Source: Thelephora terrestris (lineage: Eukaryota; Basidiomycota; Agaricomycetes; Thelephorales; Thelephoraceae). From it: a stretch of DNA of 64,000 bases. Below, in pieces: positions 1 through 56,675 of the stretch. A program made the translations under genes and the position numbers. The first letter of the stretch is position 1. Each line of letters opens with the position of its first letter. Where the stretch lies: the NCBI GenBank assembly GCA_015956445.1, contig WIUZ02000015.1, forward strand, positions 310,001-374,000, in the 5' to 3' direction. Below the pieces are notes generated by a model. That model made no database searches. It worked only from the letters and a program-made list of their open reading frames with translations, and had not been told where the DNA came from.

Positions 1-2289
1 TGATTTCCTTGAGGTACGCGTTGAATCCGGCCTTTGTGTTGCCCGATATGGCGAGCCATTCTCCCAACCATAGTTGCCTGAGATCTTTGGTTAGTGTATG
101 TAGACATGATAGGTATGCGCACATACCTCCAAGGGAACCGCCCTTTGGCTCCAGTCCTCTTCTTGGTGGGGGCAGCAACGGGCTCCGGAGATACGGAGGG
201 GGCCGTGAGGCTGTCGCTATCTCCATTGGTGTTCCCATCATTGGAGGGAGCGAGAGTGGCGATGATCGGAGTGATGACGGGAGGGGGGGGAACCGACGAA
301 GAACTGTGGGTTGGGCTCGAACTGGGAAGGTCCTTAAGCATGGCCCTTATCTGGGTAAAGGGACCGGGAGAGGGAGTAAGAGGGCCAGCACCCGAAACAG
401 AGTCGTTGAGTGCATCCAATACATTTCGGGAGGCGGTGCACAGGGTTTGTTCTGGGGTGGCGGAATGAGGGGGGGAAGGTTGGACGGCACGACTTCCCGA
501 TGCAACCGGAGGGTTCTGTTTCGTAACTAGGTTAATGGATGCAATTGAACCACCCTAGAACGGACAGACTTACCTGTGGGGTGGAGGGACGAGGGGGCTG
601 GGGATCGACGGCGCCAGTTCCCGACGCAACCTGGGGATCGACGGCGCCGGTTCCCGACGCAACCGGAGGGTTCTGTATCATAACCAGGTTAGATTAGTTG
701 ATGAGACCACCCTAGAATCCACTTACTTGAACGGGTAGAGCCTTGGGAGCAGGCTGAGTGACCTTCACCTTCGAGCTAGAGAGGGGGGTCAAGAAAGTCC
801 ACCCATAGCGTAGCGAGAGAACCGGTACAATATATCTGTCTGTGTGTTGTTAGCAGAGGTATTGATAGACATAATAGACTACGACTTACCTTGCCAATCT
901 TGGCGGTATTTTTTTTGGGCTGTGCCTTCGGGGGGTGGAAGTCGGTGGTCGTGGCAGTCGCCTTCCCCTTCCCTTTGCTTTTCTTGGGAGAAGCCGGACG
1001 CATGTCGTCGGATTCTGGACGTCCACGCTTCGAGCCAGCGGAGGGACCCGACGACTCCATGGGCTCCGGGTCGATAGTGGGGTTGGACGCCCTGACAGGG
1101 GCCTCGTTTGTTGTGTTCCCGGGGGCTGGGGAACCGTCTTCCGCCTCCGAGGAGATCACCAGCACAACCTTCTTCTTCTTTTGATTGCCAGTGGGCTGGG
1201 AACCTTCTGTATCCGAGGATATCTCCAGGATATCGGTGGGATCGGGAAGGATTGCTGCGAATTTTTTCTTGAGGGTCGGGTCGTTCTCGATAATGGCCAG
1301 GATCCTGCTTTTCCTATAATAGTTAACCCATATTTGTCTTACCTTCCAATGGCCTTCGCAGAGTCGAAGCCAAGGATATTTCTCCTCCATAGTCTTGCGG
1401 AAGTCCTCCCGGCGATTGAGTCCAAGGCCGGAATAATGCACGGGTAGCTTGCCGTCCTGGAGCATATCTACCCAGTATGCGGTGAGATCTCCCTGGACCT
1501 CTTCTTTGACGTCTGCTGAGACAGGGACGCCGAACTCGTCCTCAAAAAAGAGGGTGAGGACAGGAGGGGGGCGGGAGTCCAGGGTGTGGGATTCCTTGAG
1601 CTTGGCACCGTTACGGATTTCCTGCCATACGCTTCGGGGCCAGAACTTGACGCGCTTGTAGTCAACCTGCTTTGGGTTGAGCGGGATCCCAAACGTCCCG
1701 ATCCCAGGAATTTCCCCGGTGTAATTGGCCGCGATATGTTCGGCAATCTTCTGGACGTTGTCCTTCGTGTCGTAGATCGCATCGCGAAGGCCCTCAAACA
1801 TCTGTTCATATTCCCTGTCGATATTTTGATGATAGTTAGGCGCATATAATGTGTAAAATATGTAGACACTTACAATGAGGATTTTCCGAGGAGATGGGCG
1901 TCATGCACCTCGCGCTGCAATCTAGCACATTTAGCACGTAAATCCATTAGTTCAATCAAGTTGGGGTCGTCGTCGTCAACGGGAGAAGAGGATTGAGAGT
2001 GATATTTTTTTGCAGGCACAGAGATACGAGATTTCCCAGAATGAGGCCCATGACCACGAGATTTAGGGTCACGGCGAGCACGAGAGTCATATGGGTGAGA
2101 CCTGTGAGAGCCAGTAGGACCAGATACACGAGCAGCACGAGGCTCGTACTCGAGAGAGTCGTCCAGATCTAGATCGCCTTGATCGAAAGGCGAGGACCAG
2201 TCACAAGGAGGAGGAGAACCAGACAAGGCATGATCCTCATCGTCAAGAGCATGCGAAGAAGGTCGAGCTACCCTAGAGGAGACAGGCAT
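1..2289 (-). CDS. Second gene of the CACTA element, unknown function (partial, continues beyond window)
   Basis: I do not recognise a domain. A consistent minus-strand splice model is 2289-1874, 1814-890, 768-727, 672-574, 515-127 and 77 to beyond 1, with canonical GT/AG ends and phases that agree (exons 1 and 2 together give 447 codons exactly). The N-terminus is Ser/Arg/Asp-rich; a middle segment (MFEGLRDAIYD onward) looks globular; then follows a Lys/Ser-rich, low-complexity region with a KKSKGKGK basic stretch that could be a nuclear signal. Exons 4 and 5 are related by tandem duplication. The gene starts 150 bp downstream of the transposase stop on the same strand, so it is probably the element's accessory protein, by analogy with the TnpA-type partner of plant CACTA elements. 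That role is inference. Confidence 0.6.
541..720 (-). repeat. Tandem exon/intron duplication inside the CACTA accessory gene
   Basis: The branch site, acceptor and first codons of exon 5 (TAACCTAGTTACGAAACAG then AACCCTCCGGTTGC) recur nearly unchanged at exon 4 (TAACCTGGTTATGATACAG then AACCCTCCGGTTGC). Exon 4 itself holds two 33-bp copies encoding VASGTGAVDPQ. The result is three related proline-rich repeats in the protein, all in phase 0. Confidence 0.7.
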
Positions 2290-2439
2290 TGGAAAACAGC
2301 AGAGAGAGAGAGGAGGAAGATAATGGGAGAGAAAAAGAGAGAGATAAGATGAGATTTTTTTTGGGGATGGGGATATGTCGTGCGGATCGGATCGGGCTGG
2401 TCGGTCTCTGCAAATGTCGTCATATTGGTTGTAATATAT

Positions 2440-5400
2440 TTATTGGTTGTCCCCAGGGTCGTCTGCCTCCATTACATCTAATCCTATCCTTTCTACTACA
2501 TAAAACTGGTCGCTGTGTCCGTCAATTGCAAACGGAAAGGGGACCATCGCCACGACCGATTGAATCGACTTGGCACTTACGACCACAAGCGGCCTCTCCC
2601 TATGACGTCTACAGACTGCAAGCGTCGTGTGAGTGTATTGCAGGAGGTATTTGTTGGGCGGTGCATAGAACGACACGAGCGCGAAGGCTCGTAACTCTTC
2701 TCCAAACATCTTGAAGAAGTAGAATTCAATTTCGGCAAAGTACATGGCGTTTTGATAGAAGATCTTCGGTACCTTTTGTCAATAACGTACAGACTCAAAT
2801 TGAATCAAGATGCTTACCTTAACGTTGCGATCCATCCGGGACATGTCCGAGCACCAATCCACTTCCTTCCATCGGGATCTTGCTATCTGCTCGGTGGGAA
2901 GTTTGAGACGCCCCCAACGATAGACGGTCCATCGATCAATATCTTCTGCACCCGGGTAGCCGGAGAAGAAGGTATCCAGGGCGGTTTGTTCGTCGTCAGG
3001 AAGGCGATAGAGGGTCGTGTCCTTCGGTCCCAATAGCAAGTAGTTGTCGCCTAGATCCTTAGATCCTCGAGGGTCCTTGTCTTGTATTTGTAGGTCAGGC
3101 CACATAGCAGTAAGGGCGTTAGTGTATGCAACACGCTTCGCTTGTGCTGCAAGGTTCCGGAATATATTTGATGGCTGTTTGAGGAGGTTGCCAAGGTACC
3201 CGATTGTGCGCTCCATAGTCCACTGCGAAGAAAGCCAGAGGGGTCCGAGCCGATGGGTCTCTCGCGCGAGATGGGTGAGGGAATGCACGCATTGCCGGAT
3301 GAAGTGGAGCCGGTCTGGGTTGCGCTCACAGTAGATAACCTCGAAGTCAACAACCCATTGGAGGAGGAGCTGATGCGCGGCAAGCAACTGCTCCCGAGAG
3401 ATTGCACGCTGGTGAATGATCCGAACCGCGCGGACGAGCCTACAGAAGTGAGAGTAATAGGGGTCTGGAAGAATCCTATAGAAGACGCCAGGTCCCAGGC
3501 CGTAAAGATATGTTAGAAACTCCCAGGCCTTGTATCCACTCGAGACCTTCTCTTGCGGATTTCGAGGAGGACGGCCAAAGGAAGTCGGTAGATACTTAGC
3601 AGCATCTGAGACCACCGCACCATGAGCCTTCCAGACATTTCCAGTAAGTACTGCCCACGGCCAAACGGACGTACGATCCTGATCGCGAGCAGCAGGTCGA
3701 GCGCACCATAGGTCGAGGAATAGAGCCGCCATGTTTATCAGCGGCTGGTGCATCAGATCGCCTGGGAAGCAGGTAGGAAGCGGTAGGGTGCGAGGTATAC
3801 CAGAGAATATACTCGGCTTCCCTATACCTGTTGCCAAACGGCGTCTCCTGTATTCAGCCTCACTATCTGAATTGATAACCGAGATTAGATCTCGCCTGTA
3901 GATCGCGGGATCTGGGGCCAGGAGAGAGGTAACGTCGACGTCCGCATGGGAGGAGGTGCGATGATCTTCGAAGCCGATAGGTCGTAGAAGAGCAGGATAG
4001 TAGTGAGATCCGTGTTCCTTGTTACGCCCGGCAAACCCACAGAGAAGTCTGCAGCCACAACGGCCGTGATGTCCAACAGATCCGGTAAGCTGCCCCATCG
4101 CGATTGAATCTGCCAAGTCCAAGAAGAGGAATAGACGAGATCTCGCCTGTTTTCGGTCATAGGCATCCCAAATCGGCAGAGATTCGCGCTGAAGCGCAGA
4201 TACGTGGGCCAGGCCAGGGAACAAGAATGAATCCAAGTCCCCAGGTGGTTCTGGGCCAGGGATAACGCCACCAGGAAGGATGTTGCGCATCTTGTAACGT
4301 TTGTCCGGCCCCAGATCGAGGATTATCCAGATGTAGATCCAACAGTCGGACTGTTTACTCTTGTTGAGTTGCACACCGTCCATCGAGAGCATGACAACTG
4401 TGTCGTATTCGCGGATCGTTCTATTCCGGACAAGTTCTAGATAGTCCTCGCCACAGATAATGTCGTCGTAGAGTTTTGTACGTTCGCCGGTCGTCGCCTC
4501 TTCGTTCAAAATTTCTAAAGTCCTCTCCCATCGATAGTGCATGGCCTTGGCCATTTCTGAGTGTTTTCGGCAGGCCTGGAGTTGCGGACCGACTGGAAAG
4601 GTCGTGAATACTTTCCTAGGGACCTTTCTCTCGCTGTTAGACTCGTCGAGATCTTTCTGTACGTAGCGCGACTCCCCGCAATCGGGACAACGTTCCAGGT
4701 CCCGATATGGCCCAGTAAACCCAACGCACGTCTTGATACACATGTGGTGGTCCCAAGTAACAACCCCAGAGAGCTGTCGAGCCTGTTGTTCGACCTGGTA
4801 GTACGACAGTAGTTCGATGTCAGGATAGCAGGCCCAAAGGTTTCGGCGTGCGTCCTCGTAGGCCTTCTGAGAGTGATTCATGAAAGATACAAAATTCATG
4901 AGGGAAAGCCGGAGGTTACGGTCGTCCGGAGGGGTACAGTCGTGGGCTCTGGGATCCAGAAACTCCTCGAGCTCGTCAGGACCAAACTGAGATGCGAGAG
5001 TGGATTCTCCCAGCATACGGATGAACTCCAGAGCGATGCGAATCTTTGGGATCCGGGCGGGAGGAAACTCGTCCGGAGGTGGTGGCATTCGGTCAGAGTC
5101 ATCATGGTCAGAACCTGGTGGAGGGGGAGGTGGAGGTGGAGGTGTTGGAGGGGGAGGGGGAGGTGTTGGGGGGCGAGAACGAGGTGGGGGAGACAGGACG
5201 CGGGGAGTGGGAGGCTGGGGCGTTGGCAGAGGTGTCCGACGTCTTTGGTCGTCCTCTATATCTTCGTCCTATTCAAAAACCAGTAAAAAATGCAGCAGGA
5301 TAGATTAGATTTGCGTTACACTCACTGAATCTGATCTAGACGCCCGGCTAATGTTATCGGGGGGATCTACTTCATCCGGAGGTTCTTTTACGTCCAAGCT

Positions 5401-40320: not shown

Positions 40321-40489
40321 AGCCCCTTCAGCTATCTTTTCTCCATGGGTCATGGACCATACATCGTGACAATTCTCCATGGGTCATGGGCCATGCAACG
40401 TTGTACAACGCGTTGTACAACCCATGACCCATGGAGAAAAGATACCATTGTACAACCCATGACCCATGGGTAATGGAATAGTATCCGTT

Positions 40490-41290
40490 GCCCATGCCCC
40501 ATGGGTTGTACAACACTATCCATTCTCCATGGGGCATGGGTTGTACAACTCTATCCATTTCCCATGGGTCATGGGTTGTACAACACTATCTATTTCCCAT
40601 GCCCCATGGGTTGTACAATGCTATCCAATTCTCATGCCCCATGGGTTGTACAACACTATCCATTTCCCATGCCCCATGGGTTGTACAACACTATCCGTTC
40701 CCCATGGGTCATGGGTTGTACAACGCTATCCTTTCTCCATGGGGCATGGGTTGTACAACACTATCCATTTCCCATGCCCCATGGGTTGTACAACGCTATC
40801 CGATTCCCATGCCCCATGGGTTGTACAACGCTATCCTTTCCCCATGGGTCATGGGTTGTACAACACTATCCATTCTCCATGGGGCATGGGTTGTACAACG
40901 CTATCCATTCTCCATGGGGCATGGGTTGTACAACACTATCCATTTCCCATGGGTCATGGGTTGTACAACACTATCTATTTCCCATGCCCCATGGGTTGTA
41001 CAATGCTATCCGATTCTCATGCCCCATGGGTTGTACAACACTATCCGTTCCCCATAGGGCATGGGTTGTACAACACTATCCATTCTCCATGCCCCATGGG
41101 TTGTACAACGCTATCTGTTCCCCATGGGTCATGGGTTGTACAACACTATCTGATTCCCATGCCCCATGGGTTGTACAATGCTATCCATTCTCCATGGGGC
41201 ATGGGTTGTACAACACTATCTATTTTCCATGCCCCATGGGTTGTACAATGCTATCCAATTCCCATGCCCCATGGGTTGTACAACAGCATC
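40490..41290 (+). repeat. 35-bp tandem array, left arm (about 23 units)
   Basis: Period 35, measured between successive GTTGTACAAC cores (for example 40505 to 40540). Each unit has that 10-bp perfect palindrome, a CTATCC linker and a CCATG-N4-ATGG element whose centre varies. Confidence 0.92.
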
Positions 41291-41594
41291 ATATGCCCAT
41301 GGGGCATCAGTTGCAGAATGGTGTCCTTTCTCCATGTCCCATGGATTATATCACTATTCCAGGAAAGGAGATACTTTATAAATCAACCATTAGCTGTGTG
41401 AATTTGAAAAAATTAGACTCTGTTTGTATGCATGATAGACCATATATCAGTTTGTGGCTCTAACCTAATGGAAACTAAACTTAACCTGATAATAGCCACA
41501 ACCTAATCCTCAATCTAACTTGAGCCAATGTAAACTTGACCCATGAACCTAAGCCTAACCTAATCCTAAACCTGGTCTAATCCCAAATCTACTC

Positions 41595-41752
41595 CTAACC
41601 TGACCTGACCTGACCTAACCTAACCTAACCTTATCTGACCTGAACCTACACCTAACCTAACCTAACCTAACCTAACCTAACCTAACCTAACCTAACCTAA
41701 CCTATACCTAAACTAACCTATACCTATACTAACCTATACCTAACCTAACCTG
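41595..41752 (+). repeat. CCTAA pentanucleotide tract, left arm
   Basis: Mostly (CCTAA)n with CCTGA and CCTATA variants. It is an internal mirror of 42403-42566, not a chromosome end. Confidence 0.9.
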
Positions 41753-42402
41753 GTATGGGCAAACCTAACCTACCTATCATGACCTGTTTCAGCCTAATGT
41801 CATGTATGCCAGCCAAGACTAACTTCACCCAGTTGCAAACATATGACTTGGGTCACAGGACCATAAAGCAAACTGCAGTCCCCTCACTCTGTGCCCAACC
41901 ATCCGATAAGCCCACGGACGCACATATATATCATCAGCAACCCAGCATCATGCTTATCACCCATGTTCAACCACAAACCACTCTCACCCTTTGTTCTGTG
42001 CCATCTCAAAGCCTAACCATAACTCTAGCTCACCCACCCATATTCATCCTTGTGTGGAATATGTTATAAGTCTATAAACCATATGTTTGTAGTCCACTTG
42101 CTTGTGGGCCCAAGGAGGTGGATGAACTTGAGTTGTGGTTTGTCTGTGAGATGGCACAGAACAAAGGGTGAGAGTGGTTTGTGGTTGAACATGGGTGATA
42201 AGCATGATGCTGGGTTGCTGATGATATATATGTGCATCCGTGGGCTTATCGGATGGTTGGGCACAGAGTGAGGGGACTGCAGTTTGCTTTATGGTCCTGT
42301 GACCCAAGTCATATGTTTGCAACTGGGTGAAGTTAGTCTTGGCTGGCATACATGACATTAGGCTGAAACAGGTCATGATAGGTAGGTTAGGTTTGCCCAT
42401 AC

Positions 42403-42566
42403 CAGGTTAGGTTAGGTATAGGTTAGTATAGGTATAGGTTAGTTTAGGTATAGGTTAGGTTAGGTTAGGTTAGGTTAGGTTAGGTTAGGTTAGGTTAGGT
42501 TAGGTTAGGTGTAGGTTCAGGTCAGATAAGGTTAGGTTAGGTTAGGTCAGGTCAGGTCAGGTTAGG
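42403..42566 (-). repeat. TTAGG pentanucleotide tract, right arm
   Basis: Reverse complement of the left-arm CCTAA tract, with the same variants in mirrored order. Confidence 0.9.
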
Positions 42567-42879
42567 AGTAGATTTGGGATTAGACCAGGTTTAGGATTAG
42601 GTTAGGCTTAGGTTCATGGGTAAAGTTTACATTGGCTCAGGTTAGATTGAGGATTAGGTTGTGGCTATTATCAGGTTAAGTTTAGTTTCCATTAGGTTAG
42701 AGCCACAAACTGATATATGGTCTATCATGCATACAAACAGAGTCTAATTTTTTCAAATTCACACAGCTAATGGTTGATTTATAAAGTATCTCCTTTCCTG
42801 GAATAGTGATATAATCCATGGAACATGGAGAAAGAACACCATTCTGCAACTGATGCCCCATGGGCACAAGATGCTGTTG

Positions 42880-44890
42880 TACAACCCATGGGGCATGGGA
42901 ATTGGATAGTATTGTACAACCCATGGGGCATGGAAAATAGATAGTGTTGTACAACCCATGCCCCATGGAGAAAGGATAGCGTTGTACAACCCATGGGGCA
43001 TGGAGAATGGATAGTGTTGTACAACCCATGGGGCATGGGAATTGGATAGTGTTGTACAACCCATGACCCATGGGAAATGGATAGTGTTGTACAACCCATG
43101 CCCCATGGAGAATGGATAGCGTTGTACAACCCATGCCCCATGGGGAAAGGATAGCGTTGTACAACCCATGAGGCATGGGGAAGGGATAGTGTTGTACAAC
43201 CCATGCCCCATGGAGAAAGGATAGTGTTGTACAACCCATGACCCATGGGGAACGGATAGTGTTGTACAACCCATGACCCATGGGGAACGGATAGTGTTGT
43301 ACAACCCATGACCCATGGGGAACGGATAGTGTTGTACAACCCATGGGGCATGGGAAATGGATAGTGTTGTACAACCCATGGGGCATGAGAATCGGATAGC
43401 ATTGTACAACCCATGGGGCATGGGAAATAGATAGTGTTGTACAACCCATGACCCATGGGAAATGGATAGTGTTGTACAACCCATGCCCCATGGAGAATGG
43501 ATAGCGTTGTACAACCCATGGGGCATGGGAATTGGATAGTGTTGTACAACCCATGAGGCATGGGGAAGGGATAGTGTTGTACAACCCATGCCCCATGGAG
43601 AAAGGATAGCGTTGTACAACCCATGACCCATGGGGAACGGATAGTGTTGTACAACCCATGGGGCATGGGAATCGGATAGTGTTGTACAACCCATGCCCCA
43701 TGGGGAATGGATAGTGTTGTACAACCCATGACCCATGGGGAACGGATAGTGTTGTACAACCCATGGGGCATGGGAAATGGATAGCATTGTACAACCCATG
43801 GGGCATGGGAATCGGATAGCGTTGTACAACCCATGCCCCATGGAGAATGGATAGCGTTGTACAACCCATGACCCATGGGGAATGGATAGCGTTGTACAAC
43901 CCATGACCCATGGGGAATGGATAGTGTTGTACAACCCATGGGGCATGGGAATCGGATAGCGTTGTACAACCCATGCCCCATGGGGAAAGGATAGCGTTGT
44001 ACAACCCATGACCCATGGGGAACGGATAGTGTTGTACAACCCATGCCCCATGGAGAAAGGATAGCGTTGTACAACCCATGGGGCATGGAGAATGGATAGT
44101 GTTGTACAACCCATGGGGCATGGGAATTGGATAGTGTTGTACAACCCATGACCCATGGGAAATGGATAGTGTTGTACAACCCATGGGGCATGGGAATTGG
44201 ATAGCGTTGTACAACCCATGCCCCATGGGGAAAGGATAGCGTTGTACAACCCATGAGGCATGGGGAAGGGATAGTGTTGTACAACCCATGCCCCATGGAG
44301 AAAGGATAGCGTTGTACAACCCATGACCCATGGGGAACGGATAGTGTTGTACAACCCATGACCCATGCGGAACGGATAGTGTTGTACAACCCATGACCCA
44401 TGGGGAACGGATAGTGTTGTACAACCCATGGGGCATGCGGAACGGATAGTGTTGTACAACCCATGACCCATGGGGAACGGATAGTGTTGTACAACCCATG
44501 GGGCATGGGAATCGGATAGTGTTGTACAACCCATGCCCCATGGGGAAAGGATAGTGTTGTACAACCCATGCCCCATGGAGAAAGGATAGCGTTGTACAAC
44601 CCATGACCCATGGGGAACGGATAGTGTTGTACAACCCATGCCCCATGGGAATCAGATAGCGTTGTACAACCCATGCCCCATGGAGAATGGATAGCGTTGT
44701 ACAACCCATGGGGCATGGGAATTGGATAGTGTTGTACAACCCGTGACCCATGGGGAACAGATAGCGTTGTACAACCCATGGGGCATGGGAATTGGATAGT
44801 GTTGTACAACCCATGCCCCATGGGGAAAGGATAGCATTGTACAACCCATGAGGCATGGGGAAAGGATAGTGTTGTACAACGTTGCATGGC
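42880..44890 (-). repeat. 35-bp tandem array, right arm (about 57 units)
   Basis: Same 35-bp unit as the left arm in inverted orientation, but more than twice as long, showing that arrays expand or contract independently of the flanking arm sequence. Confidence 0.92.
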
Positions 44891-48065: not shown

Positions 48066-48502
48066 CACTGGGGGCAAGGGGGGTACTTACCTAGTAGGTA
48101 CATTGTGAGTTCATTGTGGGTTTTGAAACCATTTGCCCAGTTGTTACCCACCAGGTACTTTTTGGGTACTTTTTGAAATATACCCATCAATTCACCCAAA
48201 TTTTACCCACTGGGTACATGGTGGGTACTTTGTAAAAGTACCCACTCAGGAACCCAGTGGGTATTTTTTGAGCGAAACCCCTGGGTTCTTTCACAATTCA
48301 CTTTCCAATGTGCCCATCACAAACCTGAGCCACTCATTGAGAGTTCTTTCATAAAGTACACACCAATCTGATCACAATGTACTCAACCAGATACTCAATG
48401 GGTTCTTTGAGAGTTTGCAATGAAACTGAGCCACACTGTGAGTTCTTTGTGAGTTCTTTGAAAAAAACCCACTGGGTACATTTGTCAGGGTTGTAGGCCT
48501 GC

Positions 48503-49126
48503 TTACTGTTTGTGGGGCGCTAGAGGATTAGCGGATGGGTGAGGGGTGTCGGGTCTAACTTTGAAGGGAGTTCCGGGTGTAGAGACGAGGAGAGGGGGAA
48601 TATCAAGGGAGAGAGGTGACTCTGTCTGATATGGGTGGACGGGTGAGTGATAGTCTTGGCAGAACCGATTGAGTTGCTGTACAAACGGTTCGAAGTCTTG
48701 GTCGCTAAGACGTTCGAAATTGATGAGATATTCTATAACCGAATAAGGTAATTCAGTTGGGACTTCCCACCAGAGGACGATGATAGCAGGGGAGTGGGTA
48801 TGGATGTTAGTGGTAAGATGAATACGTGGAGAGGGGAAATAAAAGGCTGGACTGATACTGAAGTAAACAGTCGCAAGGACGCTCTCCGTAAGATCCGAAT
48901 TCCAGAGGAATTGATGATCTGCTCCTAAGAGAAAAGGAGGAGTAGTGACTCCGGCGTCGAGAGCTGCAAAGGGTCGGTAATAGGGGAAGTGGGTGAGTAA
49001 GCCGGCTGTTCGGTTTACTTGGAGACTCCTGATGAGTTTATACTCCCAGATAGATCTCCTGGCGTCAGGGACGTTTGGTCGCTGGACTGGACTAGTAGAG
49101 GGGAAAGGATTTGGGGGACTGAACAT
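48503..49126 (-). CDS. E1 minus-strand gene, unknown 207-aa protein
   Basis: ATG at 49126 (MFSPPNPFPSTSP); product nearly the same as that of E2 (50039-50662), with about 10 conservative differences over 207 residues. Upstream, GTAAGCTGAGG and a pyrimidine-poor acceptor suggest a 5' intron. Motifs: RRSIWEYKLIRSL, LLTHFPYYRPFAALDAG, LWWEVPTELPYSVIEYL. No known domain recognised. Confidence 0.55.
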   Translation of the reverse strand: MFSPPNPFPSTSPVQRPNVPDARRSIWEYKLIRSLQVNRTAGLLTHFPYYRPFAALDAGVTTPPFLLGADHQFLWNSDLTESVLATVYFSISPAFYFPSPRIHLTTNIHTHSPAIIVLWWEVPTELPYSVIEYLINFERLSDQDFEPFVQQLNRFCQDYHSPVHPYQTESPLSLDIPPLLVSTPGTPFKVRPDTPHPSANPLAPHKQ

Positions 49127-49766
49127 ACACTGGCAGGGGAGTTCCTGCTTTGGGTGAGTCAGAGAAAGTAAGGCGTGAGGAGAATTCCTCAGCTTACTTT
49201 GTTTATTCAAGTTGTGGGTAGGGGAGTACAGAAGAGATTGAGAATGGGGAAAAGAAGGAGCGAACGCTCTTCCTTATATACCCAATCCTCTACAGGAGTC
49301 ATTATTCTACAACGAGTCAAACAAGAGTCAACATGGTCTGTGCGTAGTTTAGGGTAGGGTAGATGAGTCAGAACGAGGGGACTTAGGACGACAGATGGTA
49401 ATTACTAATACAGGAACAGTAGAGATACGAGTTGATGGAAGCATTCGGGGATTTCTCGCGTTTCGTGGTGTCAATAGAAGCGCGATGGGGATTTCTTTGG
49501 ATCAATGGTAGTAATAGAAGCGTGATGGGGATTTCTCATGATCGATGGGGATTTCTCGGGGTTTGATGGGATCTCGATTGGGGCTGAGGGTTCGTTTATC
49601 CTAATGGGGGCGTTAATGGATAATAGGTTATTGTCTTCCCCTTTTGGTTTTCTTTGAGTCAGGATGTATTTAAGTCAGGGGGATTAATGATCGTTCCCCT
49701 CATCGTCTCTTTTCCACCCCCACCAAACACCAGTACCACCTTCTCTCTCAAATATCCACCACTACT

Positions 49767-50018
49767 ATGTCTGCTTTCGTTGCCAACAACGCTGTGCTCA
49801 GTGCTGCCGCTACCCCCTTCACTCCGTCCTTCGAGACGGATGCTCCCTACGATGTGGAGCAACATTTGTATGACTCCCCCGCCAACATCGCCCATGACAA
49901 CCAGGTCGCCATCAGTTTTCTCACCGCCCACAACGCCCCCGCTGAGTTCTGGGAACAGGCTGGTTACGAAGATCCCAGGCTTTCTGGGCCTCGTATTCAA
50001 GCCGCTCATCCTGGAGCC
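49767..50018 (+). CDS. E1 plus-strand gene, first piece
   Basis: Begins MSAFVANNAVLSAAATPF and is a relative of the E2 gene at 51279. It stops at 50018, where E2 is inserted (TSD gagcc). Other pieces of the same copy lie at 52299-52622 and 55926-56253. TATA-like tatttaa about 95 bp upstream (49666-49672). Confidence 0.5.
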
Positions 50019-50038
50019 TGTCAGGGTTGTAGGCCTGC

Positions 50039-50662
50039 TTACTGTTTATGGGGCGCTAGAGGATTAGCAGCGGGGTGAGGGGTGTCGGGTCTGACTTTGA
50101 AGGGAGTTCCGGGTGTGGAAACGAGGGGTGGAGGGATATCGAGAGAGAGCGGTGACTCTGTCTGATAGGGGTGCACGGGTGAGTGGTAGTCTTGGCAGAA
50201 CTGGTTGAGTTGCTGCACGAAAGGTTCGAAGTCTTGATCGCTAAGGCGTTCGAAGTTGACGAGATATTCTATAACCGAATAAGGTAGTTCAGTCGGGATC
50301 TCCCACCAAAGAACGATGATAGCTGGAGAATGGGTATGGATATTAGTGGTGAGGTGAACACGTGGGGAGGGAAAGTAAAAGGCGGGACTGATACTGAAGT
50401 AGACAGTCGCGAGGACGCTCTCTGTAAGGTCTGAATTCCAAAGGAATTGATGGTCGGCTCCTAATAGAAAAGGGGGAGTAGTAACTCCGGCGTCGAGAGC
50501 TGCGAAGGGGCGGTAGTAAGGGAAATGAGTGAGTAAACCGGCGGTTCGGTTTACTTGAAGACTCCTGATGAGTTTATACTCCCAGATAGATCTCCTAGCG
50601 TCAGAGACGACTGGTCGCTGAATGGGACTTGTAGAGGGGAAGGGATTAGGGGCGCTAAACAT
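50039..50662 (-). CDS. E2 minus-strand gene, unknown 207-aa protein
   Basis: ATG at 50662 (MFSAPNPFPSTSP) to a stop at 50039. A likely 5' intron lies just upstream: GTAAGCTGAGG at about 50737, branch CTAAC and acceptor ATTTCAG near 50689. The protein is rich in Pro, Phe, Tyr and Leu: YKLIRSLQVNRTAGLLTHF, ATVYFSISPAFYFPSP, FERLSDQDFEPFVQQLNQF. Not recognised. Many of the DNA differences from the E1 copy are silent, which suggests that the protein has been under selection. Confidence 0.6.
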   Translation of the reverse strand: MFSAPNPFPSTSPIQRPVVSDARRSIWEYKLIRSLQVNRTAGLLTHFPYYRPFAALDAGVTTPPFLLGADHQFLWNSDLTESVLATVYFSISPAFYFPSPRVHLTTNIHTHSPAIIVLWWEIPTELPYSVIEYLVNFERLSDQDFEPFVQQLNQFCQDYHSPVHPYQTESPLSLDIPPPLVSTPGTPFKVRPDTPHPAANPLAPHKQ

Positions 50663-51180
50663 ACACTGGCAGGAGGATTCCTGCTGAAATGAGTTAGAAG
50701 GGGGTAAGACGTGAGGAGAATTCCTCAGCTTACTTTGTATTCAAGTTATGGGTAGGAGAGTACAGAAGAGATTGAGAATGGGGAAAAGAAAGGAGCGAAC
50801 GCTCTTTCTTATATACCCAGTCCTCTACAGGAGTCATAGTTTTACAAGGAACCAAACGTGCGTAAACATGGTCTGTGTGTACTTTAGGGTAGGTTGAATG
50901 AGTCGGGGAAAGGGGACTTAGGACGATGGCTGGTAATGACTAATTAGTAAAACAATAGGAGGAATAACCGATGGAAGTATTAGGGGGATTTCTCCTGATC
51001 GACGGGGATTTCCCCGGGCTTTCGGAAGTAGTAGAAGTGTGGCGGGGATTTCTCCTGATTGATGGGGATTTCTCAGGTTTTGATGGGATCGGGATTGGGG
51101 TTGAGGGTTTGTTTATCCTAATTAGGACTTTAATGAGAAGTAACTATTGTTTTCCCCATTGGGACTTCTGTTGAGTCAGG

Positions 51181-51192
51181 ATGTATTTAAGT
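51181..51192 (+). promoter_or_regulatory. TATA-like box of the E2 plus-strand gene
   Basis: atgtatttaagt, about 95 bp before the ATG at 51279; the same element is present in E1 at 49662-49673. Confidence 0.4.
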
Positions 51193-51278
51193 CAAGGGGA
51201 TTAATGATCGTTCCCTCCATCGTCTCCTTTCCACTTCCACCAAACCAACCACCACTCTCCTAACCAACCCTCGATATT

Positions 51279-52188
51279 ATGTCTTCTTTTGTCGCCAACA
51301 ACGCCGTGCTCAACGCCGCTGCTACCCCCTTCGACTTTACCCCGTCCTTCGAGACGGATGCTCCTCTCAACGTGGAGCAGCACCTGTACGACTCCCCCGC
51401 CAACATCGCCCACGACAACCGAGTCGCCATCGACTTCCTTACCGCCCACAATGCTCCCGCCGAGTTCTGGGAACAGGCTGGGTATGAAGATCCCAGGCTT
51501 CCCATGCCTCAGATGCAGGCTCAACCCCCTGCGGCTGCTCGCTTATTGGATGTCATGGAGAGGGATAGGGAAGATAGGATCGCGAAGTTGGAGAAGCGTG
51601 TGGACCTCATGTACGTTATCATGAACAGCTTAAACGATGACTTCTCTCACTTTGCCTTGGAACATTGGGGACCTTTTCAGGCATCTCTCTTCCGACACTT
51701 CAGACATCAATGCCACGGGGCTTATTGCACCGACCCCCCTTGCAAGTCCCCAGTCATCCCTTCGCCACCGCCAGGATCAGGGCGTTCCTCTCCCTCCATC
51801 CCCTCCCTGGAGTCCTGCCCCAGTTCGCCAGATGGTGGAGAGGTCCCAGAAGAAGAAGACCCGCAAGAGTCCGATGACTCGTTCTGGTCAACGTTGTCGT
51901 CCCTCCGACAAGTCACGGCAGGTGAGGATGAAGTTGAAGGTGGAAGTGGCGGGTCTCCAAGACCGCTATGGGTTCTCCTTAGTGAGCGGGGCCTTGCTGG
52001 ACGTGCGACGAGAGATGTATGAGAGTCTCTCTCATGATGTGTTGGGGTGTAGGGAATGTTGGCAGGATCCGGTGACACAAGAGTGGTCTTATTGCCCTGA
52101 GAGTGTTTATAATCCTCACCACTTCGCTCATCGTTGTCCTCTCCCTCAGCAGTGTTCGTGCGATGTCGACCCGTTTGTTCTTGTTTGA
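51279..52188 (+). CDS. E2 plus-strand gene, unknown Cys/His-rich protein
   Basis: Starts MSSFVANNAVLNAAATPF. N-terminal part has FETDAPLNVEQHLYDSPAN and FWEQAGYEDPRL, then a helical EDRIAKLEKRVDLMYVIMN and Cys-containing FRHQCHGAYCTDPPC. This frame closes at 52022. An overlapping frame to 52188 carries a conserved Cys/His cluster (LGCRECWQDPVT, NPHHFAHRC, CSCDVDPF) that is kept with conservative changes in E1 (55926-56253), so both frames may be used through an intron between about 51840 and 51980 that I cannot place. Possible zinc-binding, DNA-binding role is inference only. Confidence 0.45.
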
Positions 52189-52298
52189 GTTTGTAGTTCC
52201 CTTTTCCCATCCTTGTATTATTACTACTGCGAATGAGACCAATGTCTTGAACTATTTGTGTGATCTTGGCTACTATGTCACGTGTTCGTGACAGAGCC

Positions 52299-52622
52299 GC
52301 TCTTTTGTTGGACACCATGGAGAGGGAGCGGGAGGATAGGATTGCGAAATTGGAGAAGCGAGCGGACCTTATGTACGTCATCATGAACAGCTTGAATGAT
52401 GACTTCTCTCACTTTGCTTTGGAACATTGGGGACCTTTCCAGGCATCTCTCTTCCGATATTTCGGACATCAATGCCACGGGGCTTATTGCACCGACCCCC
52501 CTTGCAAGTCCCCAGTCATCCCTTCGCCACCACCAGGATCAGGGCGTTCCTCTCCCTCCATCCCCTCCCTGGAGTCCTGCCCCAGTTCGCCAGATGGTGG
52601 AAAGGTCCCAGAAGAAGAAGAC
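52299..52622 (+). CDS. E1 plus-strand gene, middle piece
   Basis: Matches 51530-51852 of E2 (EREDRIAKLEKRADLMYVIM, CHGAYCTDPPC). Ends at element X, whose TSD is aagac. Confidence 0.5.
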
Positions 52623-52943
52623 TGTCAGGAACATGGTATTTTTAAACTTTTTATAACATGCTCTTTCTTCGAACTCTTCTTACCAATTCTTATGTTTGAA
52701 TGCTTCACATTCCTTATCCGTCACACTATTCATTCAAACACACAAAACGCGCATACATTCACGGCAATACGGAACAACATGGCTATACTAATGCTTATAC
52801 AACGTCCTCAAAAGTCGACTCTATCTACGGCAGGCCTCATGGTCATCACCCTTCCATCCCGGAGATCGAAGTGCTGGCCCCTCCTTGCTAGGACCTCTCC
52901 AAACATGGCGTCACCATCTTCGGCACTCAGCTGAACGACCAGT

Positions 52944-54546
52944 TCAAGCCGATAGGAAGAGATGCCTTCGAGCGGACCGATCAGCCTCCCAGATGTCACC
53001 GAACTGCGGAACACCTGGTCCCACATCTCCATCACCGGATGACTGCTCGACAGCACTATCGACGTAGTCGGCAAGCGACCCTCCGTCTCCCTCGTCGGAC
53101 CCCTGGGCGGAATCCTGTCTTGCGAGTCGAAGCTGGTGGCGAAGCTGGATCTCCGACTCGACCTGTCGGTAGGGACGGTTGACCCGATAGCGGAACTCTC
53201 GTCCCCTATCTCGACCAGACTGGTCACCATCCGACTCAACTGGACGCGGGTATGGGTAAGCCGAAGGAGCCATGCGATGAGCAGGACGGCGTTGAGAGCG
53301 TTTGCAACGTTGCCCCTTAGTCACCGGACGTACCTCGGCGACCCTCGGAGCATCTTCAGCTCGGTCAACCTCCATGACCTCATCCTCGATCTTCACCAAC
53401 TGATGGATCGGCTGCAAGACGCAGCGTCCACAATTCTCCTTGTCGGAAGCGGCCAAGGTGGAAGCCGGACCTGGAGTCGGAACGGGAACTGCGTTCTCGA
53501 TCGGAGGCGTCGCATAGGACGACGGGTTAGGCGATGGGAGTACCACCTCGTCGGCGTACTCCAACTCGAACGGAACATCGGCGGTCCCCTGACCAACCAA
53601 CTTGGGACCCTCCTGACAGTTGCAGGTCTTGTCCTGCAAGGACTCGACCTGCGCTGTCAACACAGCCACTACGTTCTCGAGTTCTTCGGTCTAGGAAATG
53701 TCAGCTTCCATCATTCTAAGCAATGATGAAAGCGGCATTACCTTTTCATCCCTCCGAGCCAACGCCCCCTTAATGTTGTTATCCCTAACCTTCAACCCGG
53801 CGATCAACTCTTGATGGTTGGCGACCATTGCCTCCAACGCCTCGTTCGTTCCCTGTTGAAAGGCAGCCAAGGTCTCCTTCATTTGAAGACCCTCCGCTGA
53901 CAGACGAAGAACGTCTGCCTTCGCCTCTTTCACCTCACGCTCCAATCGTTCAACCTAGGCAGTCTGATTAGTCGAGAGTCATACTCGAATATTCAGACAG
54001 AAAACCTACCCGGCTTTCTCCTTCCCGAACGAGTGACCACAAAAGGCTAGTGGAAGCGGTAGCATGGCGGACAGCCCTAGGAACAGTCGCTCCGTGCTCC
54101 AACAAGTCCTGATCGTAGATTCCCCTCTGCAGGGTGTACCAGAGCTCCTTCTTGATCGGATGCTCCAACTCTCCGAACCTACCCCTCATCTGGAAGGCTA
54201 CCTTCTCGGCGATGATCGTACGAACCCAAAGCTCATCATCCCAGGTTAACCCCTTCAAATGAGGCATCGTCTCCCTGAGACGTTCGGCGTCCACTTCGGT
54301 GACGACCTCCAAGATCTAGAAGCCGTTAGTTTGACATCAAACGCCAAAAGAACGTTCCTCTACCTAGAGGAAGGCGTTAGTGCGAACACACGAAGCTCTA
54401 GGTCTCCCCCATACCTGGTCATCTGTGGTATAGGGAGTCCCTGCCGCACAGGCATAAGTCTTGCGAGCGGCGGCACGACGGTCGATGCGAGAGATGGTGG
54501 AAATGCCGTTGGCGACTTTGTAGGTATGGTTGTTGGGGAAGGACAT
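52944..54546 (-). CDS. Coiled-coil protein of element X (465 aa), unknown
   Basis: Four exons, 54546-54415, 54315-54010, 53954-53742 and 53690-52944: 1398 nt, all junctions phase 0, each intron with a CTRAY branch site (for example AAACTAACGG). N-terminus MSFPNNHTYKVANGISTIS, then a globular part (MPHLKGLTWDDELWVRTI, KELWYTLQRGIYDQDLLEHG), a coiled coil (LEREVKEAKADVLRLSAEG, ENVVAVLTAQVESLQDK), a Pro/Ser-rich acidic region and an Arg-rich tail. The layout recalls structural, Gag-like proteins, but introns argue against a retroelement origin. Not recognised. Confidence 0.6.
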
Positions 54547-54601
54547 GTTTTGGTAAGATGATGGGGAAGTTGCTGGTGTTGCTGATCAAGGATGGCTCCA
54601 A

Positions 54602-55920
54602 GAAGACGTCCTTCTTATAGCCTAGATCGGTGATCCTTCACGTGACCTACCTCGACGAACCTCATTGGTCCGGGTCACATCAACTTCCGCCCCTGTACCA
54701 TCATCGTTGGCTTACTACATCAAGCTGACACCTCGGCCCGCGGGACGGCCTTGGAAGAACTTCGTTCCGGAACGCCTAGAACGCGCGCGCACTAAAAATA
54801 GGTCTCAAGACCCTGATGACCCCTTTATGACATTACGAACCCCTTTTACGACCCCTCATGACTTTACGATTACGATCAACCCTGGACCCTGATCACACAC
54901 GTGGACAGTCACATCACAGTCTCCTAACCGGAGGAAGGAATCGCCGTTATTCGGAAGGAGTGCCTTAGACTCCTTTTGTTTAGCCCAGCGAATGTGGAGT
55001 AGCCGTTAGCGTGAAACGCCGGCGAATCTGTAATCCCTCATGTCCCATGAGTCTAGGCTCGACCTCCTCATGTTCGGACGTACGTTGAGGTTACCACTTG
55101 TCCGTGATGCTGTTACCGCCTACAGACAACAAGGGATGCTGTATGGTCTCTATCTTTGGCCTCTCCAAAGGAAGCATCCGAGAAGATTCTCACCTAGCCC
55201 TTGGGTGTGATCCCCAGGTACGAACTTTAATGACCCCATGCCCCTCTTTCTTTTGGACTAGTGTTATCTTTACCCCTATGTTTCATGCGGACATTCGTTA
55301 TCTTTTATGCAATCCTTCACACGCTAGTAAGGCCCTTTGTCCTTTATTCTCCCACGCGTCATATTTGCTCGCTTCCCTTACTTAGCGTTCACACACTCCT
55401 TAGCTCCCTTTGTTCGGACTTGATAAGGGTATATTAGGGTATTGACGTCATGGCCACTCCTTTAGTATAAGTAGCAACTGTGGCTGTATCGTAGTACCTT
55501 AGTTTTGTTACCTCAGGAAATCCTCTGCCCTTCTCAGCCCAGTTGCAGTTAAGGCCAAGTCAGAGTTTCTTGTTTGATCCAAGACATCCCCCCATCTGCT
55601 CTCCCTCCCGCTCTGCGCGTCAACTGCGCCTCGTAACTATAGACTCTCCGCAGTCATATTAGAACACCTCGAGCGTCCAGTCGATCAACTGGTGGAGTCA
55701 TCAATCCTGTTGTAGGGATCAACCCTTGTTTGTTAAACCGAACGAAGTACGGTTTAGGTTGGGTTTCTCTTTAGGATTTCGACCTGACTTGCAGTGACCT
55801 CGGACAACCTACCGGAAGAATAGAGACGTGATCGTTCTCTCACAAGCTAGTCGGACTAGTGAGTACTCTGCGGAGTCGGCTCAGTGAACTGGTAGTTGTT
55901 GGGGTAGAGTGGCCCTGACA
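54602..55920. other. Non-coding right part of element X
   Basis: No long open frame. Contains a TATA-like tagtataagtag near 55465, in the plus orientation, and short CT-rich stretches. Confidence 0.35.
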
Positions 55921-55925
55921 AAGAC

Positions 55926-56253
55926 CCGCAAGAATCCGATGACTCGTTCTGGTCAACGTTGTCGTCCCTCCGACAAGTCACGTCAGGTTCGGATGAAGTT
56001 GAAGGTGGAAGTGGCGGGTCTCCAAGACCACTATGGGTTCGCCTTAGTGAGCGCGGCCTTGTCGGACGTGAAGCGAGAGATGCATGATAGTTTGTATCAT
56101 GATGTGTTGGGATGTCGGGAGTGTTGGGTGGATCCGGTAACACGAGCATATTTGTACTGTCCTCAGAGCGTGCATAATCCGCACCACTTCGCTCATCGTT
56201 GTCCGTTTGCTCAGGATTGTACTTGCGACGTAGATCCTTTTGTCTTGGTTTAA
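55926..56253 (+). CDS. E1 plus-strand gene, last piece
   Basis: Matches the C-terminal Cys/His-rich end of the E2 gene (LGCRECWVDPVT, NPHHFAHRC, CTCDVDPFVLV) with conservative differences. Confidence 0.5.
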
Positions 56254-56675
56254 ATTTGCGACTGTTACGAGTTCCCGTTGTACTTCTATTAGTTCGAATA
56301 AGACCAATGTCTTTGATTATCTGTGAGATCTTGGTTACTATGTCACGCGTTCGTGACAACATTGTGATCAAATTGGTGGTTACTTTATGAAAGAACTCTC
56401 AATGAGTGGCTCAGGTTTGTGATGGGCACATTGGAAAGTGAATTGTGAAAGAACCCAGGGGTTTCACTCAAAAAATACCCACTGGGTTCCTGAGTGGGTA
56501 CTTTTACAAAGTACCCACCATATACCCAGTGGGTAAAATTCGGGCGAATTGATGGGTATCTTTCAAAAAGTACCCAAAAAGTACCCAGTGGGTAACAACT
56601 GGGCAAATGGTTTCAAAACCCACAATGAACTCACAATGTACCTACTGGGTAAGTACCCCCTTGCCCCCAGTGAAA

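Follow-up and report, generated by a model that had tools for sequence, protein, structure and literature searches.

The window, a 64,000-nucleotide stretch of the Thelephora terrestris genome, contains a complete 2275-bp unit, E2, at positions 50019..52293. The unit, to which no strand is assigned, begins with TGTCAGGG and ends with TCGTGACA, and is flanked by the 5-bp target-site duplication (TSD) gagcc on its left (50014..50018) and on its right (52294..52298). The coordinates, ends and TSD of E2 given in an earlier note on this DNA were exact on re-reading. The nesting of E2 within a second copy, E1, bounded by the TSD acatt, is likewise borne out; E1 is additionally split by a second element, F (52623-55920), which was absent from that note. 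E1 is therefore composed of three parts interrupted by E2 and by F: 48483..50018 with acatt at its left, 52294..52622, and 55921..56358 followed by acatt. Elsewhere in the window, positions 40456-44859 hold a large 35-bp tandem repeat array with an inverted arm of 1296 nt that is 90% complementary.

E2 carries two divergent genes. On the minus strand, an intronless gene of 207 aa (50039..50662; pN/pS 0.13 over 35 copies) has its stop codon 20 nt from the end of the unit, which leaves no room for a usual 3' UTR. The intergenic region that follows (50663..51278) would contain a bidirectional promoter, and this middle part of E has little codon periodicity across copies. On the plus strand, exon 1 (51279..51610; pN/pS 0.24), which by eye includes a coiled-coil-like segment, is followed by a 70-nt intron with the boundaries GTACGT...CAG (51611..51680) and by exon 2 in the spliced frame (51681..52188). 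The spliced product is 279 aa in length with a Cys/His-rich C-terminus. The intron is itself conserved as coding sequence in the exon-1 frame (pN/pS 0.06), and an unspliced open reading frame of 247 aa runs through it. The two divergent, unrecognised genes described previously are thus present; the assignment of splicing to the 207-aa gene was swapped, as the conserved open reading frame there is intronless and splicing belongs to the plus-strand Cys/His-rich gene. Its intron has a length of 70 nt in 37/37 copies and starts with GT in 36/37. Public T. terrestris gene models, rather than transcripts, were examined for splicing: models P0010-P0014 contain the spliced junction and models P0037, P0038 and P0040 read through the intron.

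Across copies, third-position variation extends over approximately E 1-675 on the minus strand and E 1261-2170 on the plus strand, the latter in two frames. With changes among copies concentrated on third codon positions, both E genes are real, and both are intact in 33/37 copies. The pN/pS values were derived from 35 copies, with L055 and L056 left out. Beyond E 1865, the spliced frame is constrained (0.21 and 0.16) and the unspliced frame is not (1.6 and 1.5). Within E 1665-1864, the values are 0.37 and 0.49 for the unspliced frame, 0.59 and 0.88 for the spliced frame, and 2.4 and 1.6 for the third frame. In window coordinates, constraint in two reading frames across copies is seen at 51611-51680 and at 51683-51882. 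These patterns suggest that two overlapping products may arise from the retained and the spliced intron; internal initiation or frameshifting may be an alternative source of the dual-frame constraint. Changes private to single copies have pN/pS values of 0.44, 0.76 and 0.35 versus 0.07, 0.17 and 0.12 for shared changes, and this weaker constraint on private changes matches what a family kept under selection while spreading would show.

Neither E protein could be assigned by Pfam, by a PDB sequence search or by AlphaFold. Pfam gave no match above cut-off for either gene and one match far below its cut-off, the PDB sequence search returned one match at E = 1 for one gene and none for the other, and the AlphaFold models were poor (mean pLDDT 38.9 and 47.2). 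No integrase or transposase match was found in E, in agreement with the earlier note, which saw no transposase. All homologues listed for the E genes and for the F gene belong to T. terrestris or to metagenome or unnamed sources, one of the searches having scored just the 7994 candidates that shared most words. The metagenome contigs with E homologues include some of ~10.8 and ~12 kb. The E proteins may serve the element itself, by regulating its own expression or its silencing (anti-silencing). Four annotated T. terrestris proteins (P0010, P0012, P0013 and P0014) are apparent chimeras of an E gene and other inserted elements; the partner is the F gene in P0010 and P0013 and, by eye, a copia-gag-like segment in P0014 and a coiled-coil segment in P0012.

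A whole-genome search with 50019-52293, as proposed earlier, recovered many end-to-end copies, with 34 such places among the best 40 of 399 candidates. A second query listed 16 further full-length places among the best 40 of 394 candidates, and TSDs were checked for two of these 16. A 19-base pattern of the E start containing one N matched the genome 166 times versus 0 for its reversed control, and also caught a diverged subfamily that is 71-78% identical to E (L054-L057). The 37 copies that were aligned end to end range from 2224 to 2358 bp, and 37/37 start with TGTCAGGG and end with TGACA. The terminal inverted repeat is limited to the 5 bp TGTCA/TGACA. An exact 5-bp TSD flanks 36/37 aligned copies (35/36 by script, and L032), the sole exception being L026. 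Four of four additional copies (C59:1195867, L061, L062 and C59:693916) also have a TSD, that of C59:693916 being judged by eye from a copy of which just the two ends were read. Together, an exact 5-bp TSD of its own was seen for 40/41 copies whose two ends were read, a count that applies to copies other than truncated or interrupted ones such as L028, L038-L043, L054 and L057. With a length that is nearly fixed at ~2.3 kb, E is a real mobile unit, as previously stated, and the observation of an unusual unit is confirmed. The TSDs present no evident target motif or consensus over 35 sites. Nested insertions were seen of E in E, F in E, and E in F. Two inverted pairs of E copies were also observed: one tail to tail, with identical scores and ~0.5 kb apart (C13:553186-558334), and one head to head and nearly abutting (C6:233727-238223).

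E copies typically share ~87% identity in pairwise comparison, with a median private divergence of 0.53%. The two most similar copies reach 99.3% identity, which indicates recent activity. Sites further apart are less strongly linked: r2 drops from 0.109 (<=20 bp) to 0.035 (>1 kb), with ~0.049 for shuffled positions, and the four-gamete fraction rises from 0.63 to 0.74, with ~0.72 for shuffled positions. From this decay, the E copies are mosaics. Template switching by reverse transcriptase would fit such mosaics, and gene conversion could produce them too.

The element that splits E1 provides a point of reference. F (52623..55920) is a 3.3-kb solo LTR with the ends TGTCAGG...CCTGACA and the TSD aagac, and its relatives flank a chromovirus gag-pol. 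On the minus strand at 52947..54546 (tblastn coordinates), F contains a spliced coiled-coil gene that is antisense to the retroelement and shows third-position variation among 7 copies. A version of the element termed F' is found at L053 (C23:1029200-1038900), where an LTR is followed by 6 kb of gag-pol, made up of a gag-like frame and a pol frame, and then by the start of the next LTR. The pol frame is 1322 aa long and by eye has a C-terminal chromodomain-like segment. On C23, three F'-type LTRs and two interiors are arranged in tandem with a period of 9310 bp. By eye, AACTACCAG, which follows the L053 LTR, is complementary to CTGGTAGTT close to the end of that LTR and is a candidate self-priming site. 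Markers of the window's own F type flank a pol on C1, and F'-type LTR markers do so on C12 and on C23. As judged by eye, 7/80 listed F/F' LTR markers are in pairs or triples around a pol and the other 73/80 flank none of the pols found. All of the complete F copies that were examined (6/6) are solo LTRs bounded by exact TSDs, and in F, too, most LTRs occur alone.

A second chromovirus pol, 70% identical over a 321-aa C-terminal query, has a putative LTR, G, directly downstream (L058, C12:1334400-1338400, at about 169-3102; ~2.9 kb). G ends with AGAGTGGCCCTGACA like F, with the same 15 terminal bases, and its antisense gene is homologous to the F gene (32% over 238 aa, E 1e-18). G is called putative, having been read on the downstream side of the pol only. 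In this genome, F is thus an established case of an LTR with a gene, and G a likely one.

The termini of E fit the TGTNR rule of gypsy LTRs, as that rule is given in PMC2836005. The TG...CA (TGTNR) ends, the 5-bp TSD, the 5-bp inverted repeat and the mosaic copies fit a Ty3/gypsy-type integrase, in line with the retroviral-type integrase that the earlier note had suggested. When reversed, E starts with TGTCACGAAC and ends with CCCTGACA; F starts with TGTCAGGAAC and ends with CCCTGACA. Read in this direction, the spliced gene of E has the antisense orientation found in F and G, and retrotransposition would therefore leave its intron in place. The gene content of E had been thought to fit neither a solo LTR nor a Ginger-like element; no integrase is recognised in E, and F in the same window belongs to a family of gene-carrying gypsy LTRs. 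At the DNA level, E is not homologous to F or G. No alignment longer than 17 bp was obtained between E and F DNA and just a 21-bp weak match between E and G DNA, in a comparison that covered F and G among the gypsy and copia family LTRs, and profile comparison detected no homology between the E and F proteins.

No arrangement of two E copies around an internal region was found in the places examined, the searches having covered the best-scored candidates. Searches with a gypsy C-terminal query, RVT_2 and rve identified, by eye and with 100/166 E starts listed, no polymerase or integrase bracketed by E. At the 7/80 rate of F, ~7 of 80 E starts would be expected to be linked to an interior. Among 39 further E starts, no 12-mer was common to any pair of upstream flanks (<=45 nt), a test which would miss a single complete element and which leaves out two more starts (L063). 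A tRNA-type PBS pattern after the E end had 0 matches in the genome. A purine run before E starts had 2 matches genome-wide with differing sequences, and a pyrimidine run after E ends had 27 matches with <=1 mismatch, 9 of them exact. The patterns covered a single tRNA-type PBS and, on each side, a single PPT spacing, and 3 of the 27 pyrimidine matches were inspected. Within that scope, neither a PBS nor a PPT was seen beside E; TSDs flank 40/41 copies instead. The earlier note would have given up its proposal of an undescribed element if E were the LTR of a standard gypsy element. With no internal region between E copies and no homology to the LTRs that were read, such an element was not encountered.

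Several places that had the appearance of an LTR junction or a linked LTR were rejected. At C12:2831119 (L061), an E-like end directly adjoins an E copy, and a Helitron-like reading frame lies further on; at C59:1481148 (L062), E is rearranged with an inverted segment. The match at C59:696263 is the end of the E copy C59:693916, with the TSD CCTCC, ~0.4 kb beyond a retroelement integrase frame. Two E copies ~14 kb apart on C23 each have their own TSD, as does the copy at C59:1193928, next to a gypsy integrase. No E was found inside C4:17400-18500, where an E end and an integrase match are nearby. As an observation in its own right, the E-like end in L061 (4630-7101) is 78 bp in length and by eye adjoins the Helitron-like reading frame. 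Because no linked interior was found and DNA homology to the F and G LTRs is lacking, E is placed in no named family and is classed as an LTR-type unit seen in lone copies.

The most parsimonious account takes E as a gene-bearing LTR present as solo copies only. We regard it as somewhat probable that E is the LTR of a Ty3/gypsy-like lineage with gene-carrying LTRs, found only alone in this assembly. The strongest parallel is F, which by analogy would support E as a gene-bearing LTR and which alone carries the comparison. The sense strand of E would be the minus strand of the window, which would place the spliced Cys/His gene in U3 in antisense, the bidirectional promoter mid-unit, and the 207-aa open reading frame towards the 3' end of the LTR. 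Insertion would have been performed by a retroviral-type integrase through the 5-bp staggered joining of TG...CA ends. E would once have flanked gag-pol, and the internal region would later have been lost by LTR-LTR recombination. Given the recent activity of the family, it is surprising for all complete copies to have been lost. E may represent either the solo LTRs of a lineage absent from the finds in this assembly, or an LTR-only lineage that is moved in trans.

The second of these is rather unlikely. On this view, an LTR-derived E now transposes on its own with no internal region, and the integrase of chromoviruses such as F or G recognises its ends in trans. No examined copy is linked to an internal region, copies are recent (the 99.3% pair; median private divergence 0.53%) with both genes intact in 33/37, the ends resemble those of F, and chromoviruses with open 1322-aa pol frames are present in the genome. 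However, no route is known to us by which a lone LTR would yield a linear copy fit for integration, and movement in trans needs one where the solo LTR needs nothing new; the lone LTRs of F also outnumber complete ones here. It is doubtful that E defines an LTR-only class, that is, a self-contained two-gene LTR that uses a retroviral-type integrase supplied in trans and whose own conserved proteins assist the step leading to an integration-competent copy. To our knowledge, no such class of mobile unit has been described.

A small DNA transposon of the Ginger-like or another DDE class, either non-autonomous or autonomous and undescribed, would have its transposase encoded elsewhere or as one of the unrecognised E proteins. 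A standalone unit with a 5-bp TSD and two conserved genes is compatible with this origin, and Ginger2/TDD elements also have TGTNR ends, with 5-bp TSDs for TDD-4/5 (PMC2836005). It is nevertheless quite unlikely, since the inverted repeat is just 5 bp, no integrase or transposase was matched, the gene at the left end leaves 20 nt for both a transcript end and a transposase site, and the copies are mosaics, although gene conversion could account for the last of these. The strong constraint on both genes and the many intact copies might also be read as a captured two-gene host cassette kept mainly for its service to the fungus. This origin is very improbable in view of the perfect TSDs at 40 sites and the weaker constraint in copy-private changes, as for a mobile family with individually dispensable copies.

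LTRs are usually seen as promoters and recombination ends, and protein-coding LTRs as rare curiosities. Here, one genome has three LTR-type families (E, F and, putatively, G) of 2.3-3.3 kb with spliced or divergent genes, and the genes of E and F are under coding constraint. The F-type gene has been kept beside two chromovirus lineages; in the rest of their LTR DNA almost no similarity is left. These observations suggest a class of genes that serve retroelements from inside the LTR and stay intact in solo LTRs. If E does move without an internal region, it would represent a new transposition route.

At the level of titles and abstract openings, a mostly open-access literature on LTRs with genes, on Ginger and KDZ elements and on repeats of T. 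terrestris, Repbase not included, described no gene-bearing LTRs in fungi. The sag gene of MMTV is an LTR-encoded retroviral gene, and both it and the antisense gene of HTLV-1 are single genes. Like E, these systems have genes within or read from the LTR, including in antisense (for HTLV-1, PMC10186651); unlike them, E has two divergent genes that fill most of the unit. E was also considered as a TRIM or LARD non-autonomous LTR element and rejected, being a single coding unit and not two LTRs with a PBS, a PPT and a non-coding interior.

According to PMC2836005, Ginger2/TDD elements combine gypsy-like TGTNR termini and 4-5 bp TSDs with inverted repeats of ~50-300 bp and an integrase-like transposase. 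E shares the termini and the TSD length, but its inverted repeat is 5 bp and no integrase-like transposase was matched, which disfavours the Ginger-like reading of the earlier note. Among basidiomycete KDZ/Plavaka elements, PlavakaA has TGT..ACA ends with 2-bp TSDs, Kyakuja has CA..TG ends with 7-bp TSDs, and Zisupton has 8-bp TSDs, as described in PMC12730594. E resembles them as a fungal element with accessory genes and, in the case of PlavakaA, in its ends. It differs in its 5-bp TSDs, having neither CA..TG ends with 7-8 bp TSDs nor TSDs of 2-3 bp.

The solo LTRs of Ty3/gypsy chromoviruses are represented here by F and putatively by G. E differs from these in its two divergent genes, in its lack of DNA homology and of a complete element among the finds, and from F in its unrelated proteins. 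What E has in common with them are TGTNR-type TG...CA ends, a long gene-bearing LTR with a spliced antisense gene and, in the case of F, a 5-bp TSD and an occurrence mostly as lone copies.
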